DNA of 64,000 bases from an uncultured Spirochaetota bacterium (GTDB lineage: Bacteria > Spirochaetota > UBA4802 > UBA5550), in the NCBI GenBank assembly GCA_937872225.1, contig CALMRZ010000038.1, positions 62,001 through 126,000 on the forward strand, given 5' to 3'. The translations under genes and the position numbers were made by a program. The notes beneath the pieces were generated by a model. It had not been told where the DNA came from. It saw nothing but the letters and a program-made list of their open reading frames with translations, and did no database searches. Position 1 is the first letter of the stretch. Each line of letters starts with the position of its first letter. Below are positions 2,765 to 57,011 of the stretch, one piece after another.

Positions 2765-2882
2765 TGAAATCTCCTTGATTTAATGATATCCGATAACGTA
2801 GTGTAAATTACTGACAATGCCCCGAAGCGTCAATAAAATTTTTTTGAATATAACTAATAAATTTTTACTACTCCCCCCCTGT

Positions 2883-2944
2883 CCCGCGTTCTCAGGATGA
2901 GGTTGATGCCAACGCAGGGACAGGATGTCCCGAATGCGTCGGCC
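2883..2944 (+). repeat. Dispersed 60-bp structured repeat, copy A
   Basis: It begins CCCGCGTTCTCAGGATGAGG and contains the hairpin GGGACA-GGA-TGTCCC at 2917-2931. Diverged copies lie at 33454-33515 (inverted) and 49636-49696. The surrounding intergenic DNA (2765-3061) shows no gene. Confidence 0.75.
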
Positions 2945-3061
2945 CAAAGGGGGCGTGTGAGAAATACTTTATGCAATACGTTAATGACCAAATAGTGATA
3001 TAACAATCTTCTATCATCATAAAAAAAGTTTGATAATTACTGTGGCCTCTATAAGTACTAA

Positions 3062-3835
3062 TTGGATGATCATGGTTCATGCCCCCTCGGGGGGACAGGG
3101 GGATCACAACAATTGAAACTAACCATATTATTTGAGGACAACCACATCATAGCCGTGGAGAAAGAAGCCGGCATCCTTTCGCAGGGAGACTCAAGCGGCG
3201 AACCTTCCCTTCTTGACGAGGTCAGAGATTATATTAAGGAAAGATACAACAAGCCGGGCAAAGTGTTTATCGGCCTGGTGCACCGGCTGGACAGGCCGGT
3301 TTCCGGCATCATGGTCTTCGCCAGGACCTCCAAGGCGGCGGAGCGGCTCCACCGTGAGTTCGCCGGCCGCGGCGTGATCAAGATGTACCTCGCACTGGTG
3401 GAAAAGAAAGGCGCGCTACCGTCCGATGAATGGGTTGAATGCGAAGATGAGCTGGTGGGAAAGCGCGGATATTCGGAACGGGCCGGAAGCGGCAGCAGGA
3501 ACGTCAGGACCGCGAAAATGCGCTACCGCCTGGCGGTTTCGAACGGGCGCTACGCTTTGCTCCTGGTCCATCTCCTCACCGGAAGGAAGCACCAGATCAG
3601 GGCGCAGCTTTCGATGCGGGGGATGCCCATCGTGGGCGACGAGACCTACGGGTCCGGCGAAAGGCTCCCTGACGGCTCCATCTGCCTCCACGCGGCGTAC
3701 ATGGGCTTCAGGCATCCCGTTAAAGACGAGCGCGTGGAACTGTTTTCTGAAGCGCCGCGGAGGATTGCGGAGAGGATTGAGGCAGACGATACCATAAGGG
3801 AAAAAATCATTTCATCATTGGATAATTTTTCATAG
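3062..3835 (+). CDS. RluA/RluD-family RNA pseudouridine synthase
   Basis: The enzyme converts uridine to pseudouridine in rRNA or tRNA. The family signature HRLDRPVSG with catalytic Asp is at about residue 77, followed by the KMYLALVEKK strand and the RKHQIRAQLSMRGMPIVGD motif. No S4 domain is seen. The annotated start adds about 17 unlikely residues (glycine-rich MDDHGSCPLGG) read from repeat-like DNA; a TTG at 3113 giving LKLTILFEDNHIIAVEKE, preceded by GGGGGA, is a better start. The closest E. coli relatives would be RluA, RluC or RluD, and the substrate uridine cannot be told from sequence. Confidence 0.9.
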   Translation: MDDHGSCPLGGTGGSQQLKLTILFEDNHIIAVEKEAGILSQGDSSGEPSLLDEVRDYIKERYNKPGKVFIGLVHRLDRPVSGIMVFARTSKAAERLHREFAGRGVIKMYLALVEKKGALPSDEWVECEDELVGKRGYSERAGSGSRNVRTAKMRYRLAVSNGRYALLLVHLLTGRKHQIRAQLSMRGMPIVGDETYGSGERLPDGSICLHAAYMGFRHPVKDERVELFSEAPRRIAERIEADDTIREKIISSLDNFS

Positions 3836-10554: not shown

Positions 10555-10590
10555 CCCTGCAGGCGGGGTCACGTGACCCCGCCTGCAGGG
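10555..10590. repeat. Perfect palindrome repeat, copy 1 (36 bp)
   Basis: The left arm CCCTGCAGGCGGGGTCAC is followed immediately by its exact reverse complement, with centre CAC|GTG between 10572 and 10573. The inner 24 bp recur at 46839-46864 and 56933-56956. It sits in the divergent spacer between nagZ and the RsbW-like gene. Confidence 0.9.
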
Positions 10591-33151: not shown

Positions 33152-33453
33152 GGCGATCGGCTTTCTCCTGTCCAGTCTGTTGTTATGTCCGTTAACGAAC
33201 AGGCGCCGCCCTGTGTGAAAAATTTTCGTCATTTTTGGCCGTCATTGATTATATATTCTCTAATGTGACATAAATATGTACAGTATATAATTTTTATCAA
33301 TATAAATTTTATTTTTTTGCCATTACATAGCTGATATATGTTCCCTCACCCTGTCCCCATAATACATACTCACCCTCGTCCCCTTCCCCAAAAATGGAGA
33401 GGGTAATTGAAGAACTGCCACTGGACTGCTCCCCTTCTCCCTATCAAGGAGAA

Positions 33454-33515
33454 GGCAAACGCTTTCGCCACATCCTGTGGCTGCGTTTGCATCAACCTCA
33501 TCCAGAGAACGCGGG
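33454..33515 (-). repeat. Dispersed 60-bp structured repeat, copy B (inverted)
   Basis: On the minus strand it begins CCCGCGTTCTCTGGATGAGG and contains the hairpin CCACA-GGA-TGTGG (33468-33480). It matches copy A at about 32 of the first 35 positions. The rest of 33233-33566 shows short hairpins only and no gene. Confidence 0.75.
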
Positions 33516-33566
33516 ACGGGGGATGTGGCCACAATGCAGTCAGGGAGGCGATGGTACACTTGAGAC

Positions 33567-33602
33567 CAAAAAAAGGCCGTCCACAAGGGACGGCCTTTTT
33601 GC
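33567..33602 (-). terminator. Rho-independent terminator after the acyl-CoA dehydrogenase
   Basis: On the minus strand AAAAAGGCCGTCC pairs with GGACGGCCTTTTT, ending in seven T residues. It lies about 25 bases beyond the stop at 33625. Confidence 0.9.
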
Positions 33603-44306: not shown

Positions 44307-44335
44307 TTGACATCAACAGGCGGTCATTTTTCATT
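44307..44335 (+). promoter_or_regulatory. Probable promoter of the fluoride riboswitch transcript
   Basis: A perfect TTGACA at 44307-44312 is followed after 17 bases by a weak TTCATT at 44330-44335. Transcription from it would start near 44342, exactly at the riboswitch 5' end. Confidence 0.5.
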
Positions 44336-44340
44336 AACCC

Positions 44341-44387
44341 GGGTGATGGGGTTCACCTTAAACCGCCTCGATGGCTGATGACTCCTG
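44341..44387 (+). promoter_or_regulatory. Fluoride riboswitch (crcB motif)
   Basis: The sequence GGTGATGGGGTTCACC, TTAAACCGCC, TCGAT and GGCTGATGACTCCT matches the crcB RNA motif consensus. GGTGA pairs with TCACC, GCC with GGC around TCGAT, and GGGGT with ACTCC (one wobble) to close the core, leaving the conserved AAAC and CTGATG nucleotides. It switches on expression when fluoride is bound. The ATG of crcB lies about 30 bases downstream, close enough for translational control; no intrinsic terminator hairpin is evident between them. Confidence 0.93.
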
Positions 44388-44417
44388 TAATATTCATTTT
44401 CTTCGAGGGGCCACGGC

Positions 44418-46791: not shown

Positions 46792-46836
46792 GGTCTATTT
46801 ACCTGGTTTTTCCAAATTCGTTGTCATTGCATTTGC

Positions 46837-46866
46837 TGCAGGCGGGGTCACGTGACCCCGCCTGCA
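46837..46866. repeat. Perfect palindrome repeat, copy 2 (30 bp)
   Basis: Left arm TGCAGGCGGGGTCAC followed immediately by its exact reverse complement, centre between 46851 and 46852. Core identical to copy 1 and copy 3. It lies in the spacer between the ABC-F gene start and the SUI1 gene. Confidence 0.9.
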
Positions 46867-49501: not shown

Positions 49502-49635
49502 CGGGGCTCTTACCTTGACTCCTTTAACTCAATTCCCGTGCAGAAGACCGCCGGTATACAGAACCAGAACAGTTAAAACCGGTTCCTTGTCAATGAAATA
49601 TTGATCCGATATTTGTGCCTTTGCGGCCTCCCGAT

Positions 49636-49696
49636 CCGCGTTCTCAAGACAAGGTTGGTGCCAACGCAGGTACAGGATGTACTGAACGCGCCGGCC
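49636..49696 (+). repeat. Dispersed 60-bp structured repeat, copy C
   Basis: Starts CCGCGTTCTCAAGACAAGG and includes the hairpin GTACA-GGA-TGTAC (49670-49682), replacing the stems of copies A and B with different but complementary bases. Other DNA of 49502-49880 contains the orphan CRISPR repeat and no gene. Confidence 0.7.
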
Positions 49697-49739
49697 TAAA
49701 AGAAACCTTTAACCTAGCAGTTAACATCATATAATAACC

Positions 49740-49771
49740 GTTTCAATCCACGCGCCCGCGTGGGGCGCGAC
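49740..49771 (-). CRISPR. Orphan type I-C-like CRISPR repeat (one copy)
   Basis: On the minus strand it reads GTCGCGCCCC, ACGCGGGCGC, GTGGATTGAAAC (32 nt), the standard type I-C repeat form with the palindromic CCACGCG...CGCGTGG core and the ATTGAAAC 3' end. Only one copy is present and no second repeat or spacer-like array lies within the flanking 150 bases; no cas gene is in the window. An IS66-family element begins 110 bases away. Confidence 0.8.
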
Positions 49772-56733: not shown

Positions 56734-56932
56734 TTCCGTACTCCCTCTTGTATTGATCTTGCTGCACGCATCGAAACACACGCAAATTTTTTTCCTCTGT
56801 CTTTTATATTAGACAGTTTATCAGACAGGGAAGTCATATTTTTTTAAAAAAAATGACAATTTAACATTAATGATTATATTAATTATCCCAAATTTACAGA
56901 ATTTTAGGTATAAGTCAAGAATAATATCGGGT

Positions 56933-56956
56933 AGGCGGGGTCACGTGACCCCGCCT
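56933..56956. repeat. Perfect palindrome repeat, copy 3 (24 bp)
   Basis: Left arm AGGCGGGGTCAC followed by its exact reverse complement, centre between 56944 and 56945. It is the shared core of copies 1 and 2, located between the lipoprotein start and the MFS gene stop. Confidence 0.88.
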
Positions 56957-57011
56957 GAGCTAACGAAAAATCCTCAATCCTCTGTTATCTGCTTAAATAT
57001 CCCCCGCTACT

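Follow-up and report, generated by a model that had tools for sequence, protein, structure and literature searches.

We identified a family of tandem GGA-loop hairpins whose stems covary, and whose best-supported explanation is a mobile palindromic DNA repeat shaped through folded single-stranded DNA, or by palindrome perfection, rather than an RNA gene. We think it fairly probable that these are MITE- or REP-like palindromic DNA repeats, non-autonomous and dispersed through genomes of uncultured Spirochaetota, and that they are mobile and recognised through their loops. This reading draws on their intergenic dispersal, lineage-specific presence and inverted composites copied as a unit, together with free stems around conserved loops and Watson-Crick pairing without a G-U excess.

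Three copies (A, B and C) lie in the window, the whole stretch of 64,000 nucleotides analysed here. A pattern search with the framework GCGTTCTC..AACGCAG..ACAGGATGT returned exactly three matches in the window, at 2886-2928 (+), 33470-33512 (-) and 49638-49680 (+), against 0 expected from shuffles, which bears out the three-copy family with a common framework described in the first-pass annotation. That annotation took the unit to be sixty bases; the family stands, and its element is in fact larger, at about 80-95 nt and preceded by a C-run. It had also proposed gathering all genomic copies, and a covariance model built from nine own-genome copies and run on the 4.69-Mb genome found 10 full copies and two halves at contig edges. 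Pattern and covariance model together place the whole elements at 2869..2958 (+) for copy A (C-run, H1, linker, H2 and G-run; 105 bits), 33441..33529 (-) for copy B (88.6 bits) and 49621..49710 (+) for copy C (87.7 bits). The framework is also found in 'Spirochaetes' metagenome bins (RBG_13_51_14, UBA5550, Zod_Metabat.30 and one more). We separately observed it in L092, a bin labelled candidate division WOR-3 (RBG_13_43_14), which reflects either inter-phylum transfer or mis-binning.

The unit consists of two hairpins in tandem on one strand, H1 and H2, joined by a short linker. In the main family H1 is an upstream mini-hairpin, CTCA-GGA-TGAG (CUCA-GGA-UGAG in RNA letters). H2 has 15 bp, GCCAACGCA-GNNACA-GGA-TGTNNC-GAA-TGCGTTGGC, with an outer helix (GCCAACGCA/TGCGTTGGC), an inner helix (GNNACA/TGTNNC), GGA at the tip of an AGGAU loop, and an A-rich 3' bulge (GAA). 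The earlier description of a single inner hairpin within the AACGCAG framework was right about that hairpin and overlooked H1, the second GGA hairpin, which is what gives the family its identity. In copy A, H1 (CTCA-GGA-TGAG) lies at 2891..2901 (+), with such GGA-loop H1 hairpins recurring in relatives' elements, and H2 lies at 2908..2943 (+), 15 bp with a GGA loop and the 3' GAA bulge. In copy B, H1 reads CTC-T-GGA-T-GAG (33497..33507, -), and H2 (33455..33490, -) has compensated changes in both its outer (GCAAACGC/GCGTTTGC) and inner helices. Copy C has a degenerate H1, CTCAAGACAAG, that has lost GGA (49643..49653, +), followed by H2 with GGTACA-GGA-TGTACT (49660..49695, +). The H2 inner stems, GGGACA/TGTCCC in A, GCCACA/TGTGGC in B and GGTACA/TGTACT in C, are as first annotated: the inner stem varies yet stays complementary around a GGA loop in all three window copies. 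The outer stem is imperfect, with one A.C mismatch in copy A and two in copy C. An alternative pairing of a 5' GCGTT with the first AACGC, judged by eye, is broken in diverged copies on C75 and C19.

A C-run precedes the element, and copy A also has a G-run after it; C-runs and G-runs flank the hairpin pair in copy A and in the copies on C4, C76, C86 and C91. Downstream of copy A we found a C/G-run companion hairpin at 3082..3102 (+), and the copies on C4, C57, C76, C86 and C91 have comparable hairpins after them. From its sequence, the companion at 3082..3102 may be where a composite unit enclosing copy A ends, and the C-run/G-run companions suggest inverted ends in own-genome copies.

Most of about 39 relatives carry elements of the same layout, with loops CAGGANG or CANGGANG. 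A parser that weighted G-U and A-C equally and demanded GGA in both loops yielded 101 elements, 65 of them non-redundant. The H2 loops of the 101 are CAGGATG (73), CAGGAGG (10), CAGGACG (7), CAGGAAG (3) and six-base CA(T/A)GGANG (8); the H1 loops resemble them, an identity that is partly by construction because the parser demanded GGA in both. H1 is not invariant, since the parser's rejects include elements whose H1 loop is, for example, CGA or GTA. GGA-GGA spacing is 25-28 nt in 92/101. Stem sequence is nearly free while loops and spacing are conserved, and no fixed motif was found outside the hairpins of the 65 non-redundant elements. The own genome contains 27 paired CAGGATG motifs, whereas the reversed pattern gave 0. 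Such pairs turned up in 38/39 genomes, and some of them are chance matches within genes. A scan of viral contigs for the same motif pair gave unspecific matches, and no plasmid match to the element was found. Adjacent copies occur in direct, head-to-head and tail-to-tail arrangements, and decayed copies are present. In three same-order genome sequences (L134, L136 and L137), two-hairpin GGA elements sit inside a long outer stem, nearer in form to an RNA with a three-way junction, and could be genuine RNAs.

The covariation is real. Across nine own-genome copies, 91.9% of cells are paired and double-change cells number 6, compared with 1.8 in shuffles. In 75 matches from the own and related genomes, 186 cells show double changes where shuffles give 53.5, and 13/15 pairs have double changes, which bears out the covariation that the first-pass annotation had observed. 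The covariation score of these 75 matches is 0.421; shuffling lowers it to 0.114 and sliding to about 0.05 or less. The alignment was fitted to the covariance model, and both controls are still far lower.

The same annotation read the covariation as a sign that a folded molecule, either RNA or single-stranded DNA, is under selection. G-U pairs are tolerated in an RNA hairpin, A-C pairs are not, and the elements show no G-U excess over A-C: their mismatches comprise 14 G-U and 20 A-C in the non-redundant set (26 and 29 in all elements), compared with 26 G-U and 3 A-C in tRNA stems of the same genome (Fisher, p=7e-5 non-redundant; p=1e-4 all). Intrinsic terminators, tried as the positive control (12 G-U, 8 A-C), gave too few clean events and were noisy, and tRNAs were used instead. 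These counts indicate that RNA-level selection does not maintain most copies, nor, probably, the elements they came from. With gene context taken from a simple codon-based gene caller, 0/101 parsed elements lie within genes and their orientation is random (43 on the strand of the downstream gene and 36 opposite to it; 32 and 44, respectively, for the upstream gene). A cis-regulatory leader was rejected on this random orientation. In the window, copy A is on the strand of a pseudouridine synthase gene, copy B on that of both its neighbours, and copy C is antisense to both of its own. RNA-level selection is unlikely given the absence of a G-U excess, the random orientation and the lineage-specific presence of copy B. 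Of the two halves of the earlier proposal, folded single-stranded DNA fits better than RNA selection, as does palindrome perfection by template switching.

The acyl-CoA dehydrogenase-dprA gene pair is conserved in eight relatives. Copy B is missing from this spacer in G004 (whose dehydrogenase has 94% protein identity), G001 and G005, in all of which the terminator and promoter region align; the alignment delimits a lineage-specific segment with copy B at 33318..33567, from the dehydrogenase terminator to the dprA promoter region. By this sequence comparison copy B appears to be a lineage-specific insertion, and the dprA locus thus displays the presence and absence at orthologous sites expected of a MITE. 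The G004 spacer has another palindrome in copy B's slot (L279:1348-1369), the core of a second repeat family. This second palindromic family, CTGCAGGCGGGGTCACGTGACCCCGCCTGCA, has three window copies (10557-10587, 46836-46866 and 56929-56959) with an exact 22-bp core, GGCGGGGTCACGTGACCCCGCC. In G001, two loci have a common 310-bp composite, 95% identical, that holds two elements in opposite orientation. In one of these the H2 GGA loop is replaced by TCCCGATTTCATCGGGA, and since the composite was copied in that form, this loop is dispensable for spread. Such a composite also occupies the G001 spacer that corresponds to copy A's, marking either a hot spot or an old insertion that was homogenised within the genome. 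Shortly after copy C, ahead of an IS66 transposase gene, we noted a lone 32-nt sequence, GTTTCAATCCACGCGCCCGCGTGGGGCGCGAC (49740-49771), which resembles a type I-C CRISPR repeat and has no second copy in the window.

These properties can be accommodated if a recombinase or transposase recognises extruded single-stranded hairpins via their loops, linker and bulge. Such recognition would keep the stems paired, and bulge and loops would give the element a strand. Against mobility stand a search of 54 Y1 loci that found no mobilising enzyme, a search of 65 elements that found no terminal tag, and an inspection of the copies by eye in which no target-site duplication was recognised. The occupied copy A slot in G001 also weighs against it, as it might reflect either a retained function or a hot spot.

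A DNA-only reading leaves one identity as coincidence, that of the loops with the CsrB repeat, and this identity motivates the strongest alternative. By analogy with CsrB/RsmZ, the element would act as RNA, either as a CsrA-binding element or as a small sponge, and a single CsrA dimer would occupy both GGA loops. The CsrB repeat is CAGGA(U/A/C)G and the CsrA SELEX consensus is RUACARGGAUGU (PMC5027483, PMC7652899); the element loops match the former, CAGGA(T/C/A)G in DNA letters, and ACAGGATGT is near the latter. The 25-28 nt spacing falls within the 10-63 nt that one dimer can bridge, and csrA is present in the own genome and in 37/39 genomes searched. Like the sponge RNAs, the element presents this motif in hairpin loops; unlike them, it offers only two sites in each unit, is present in numerous scattered copies and shows no visible RNA-strand constraint.

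Rfam supplies further likenesses. Within the window no gathering-level match was found for the element; a fluoride riboswitch (RF01734) lies separately at 44333-44394 (+, 58.9 bits). On the reverse strand, copy B matches RF01690 (Bacillaceae-1) at 27.1 bits, and its G004 relative aligns over the full length (1-67) at 32.5 bits, the best score of any close relative of the window family and under the gathering cut-off of 35; other same-order elements score 35.3-54.2 bits, above it. Our family has the RF01690 layout of two AGGA-type loops, outer and inner helices and an internal loop, and this layout is in the 101 elements. Bacillaceae-1, read on its reverse strand, likewise has two consecutive hairpins, the second built of an inner 5-bp helix, an internal loop and an outer helix, and the UCCU loops of the Rfam strand are our AGGA loops. 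The Rfam entry differs in being an sRNA of Bacillaceae on the opposite strand, whereas our family scores below its cut-off and behaves as a dispersed DNA repeat. RF01731 (TwoAYGGAY) shares two tandem GGA-loop hairpins inside a weak outer stem, with mostly six-base loops where ours are five-base; its best match, the own-genome cousin L052, reaches 35.3 bits of a cut-off of 43. Both families, which match weakly over their full length, are predicted to bind CsrA (PMC4333381). For Desulfotalea-1, the literature search found nothing beyond its founding description.

We consider a CsrA-binding RNA unlikely overall, given wobble pairs without strand asymmetry, random orientation, the lineage-specific insertion of copy B, the copying of a G001 subfamily whose H2 GGA loop has been replaced, a copy C H1 without GGA, and no promoter/terminator pair clearly above chance around copy A. 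Transcribed copies may still bind CsrA, by the same analogy.

It is very unlikely that the repeats are inert and that their paired changes arise without selection, through template switching between palindrome arms that repairs mismatches during replication. Near-perfect Watson-Crick stems with equal G-U and A-C rates are what such DNA-level palindrome perfection predicts, and decayed copies exist, but it leaves the fixed loops, linker, spacing and bulge across diverged genera unexplained.

The family resembles REP/REPIN elements, short intergenic palindromes that are sometimes bulged and often paired in opposite orientation (PMC3733652; PMC8266576), in its imperfect intergenic palindrome, bulged stem and opposite-orientation pairs. 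It differs in its double-hairpin unit, in conserving loops instead of the foot, and in lacking RAYT linkage and the GTAG/CGTC tag. REP elements of the GTAG and CGTC superfamilies carry GTAG, GGAG or CGTC at the hairpin foot (PMC3733652, PMC8266576), and none of these was enriched at either foot of our 65 elements. RAYT-like genes are present in most genomes, yet among 54 Y1 transposase/RAYT loci of the own and related genomes an element lies within 1.5 kb of only one, the IS200-like gene in G027; the RAYT genes are not flanked by the element, and G012 (72% complete) has elements and no Y1 gene that we could find. A classical REP element moved by a RAYT (Y1) transposase is accordingly highly improbable and largely refuted. 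Integron attC sites have RYYYAAC/GTTRRRY cores; the hairpin feet here, inspected by eye, are GCC/GGC instead, and an attC identity was rejected on that ground.

Covarying bacterial intergenic hairpins are routinely classed as RNAs. Because this family covaries without visible RNA-strand constraint, behaves like an insertion and has a layout related to RF01690, covariation alone cannot separate RNA from mobile DNA. The combination of G-U versus A-C asymmetry, orientation and empty sites is a cheap test that is applicable to other orphan Rfam families. The family also raises the question of whether dispersed CAGGATG hairpins load CsrA. It is conceivable, if rather doubtful, that mobile repeats carry a ready-made pair of CsrA-type sites and that Bacillaceae-1 and TwoAYGGAY are members of the same mobile class. 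If so, a transcript would gain a CsrA decoy or switch with each insertion, and selfish DNA would spread a post-transcriptional regulatory site.
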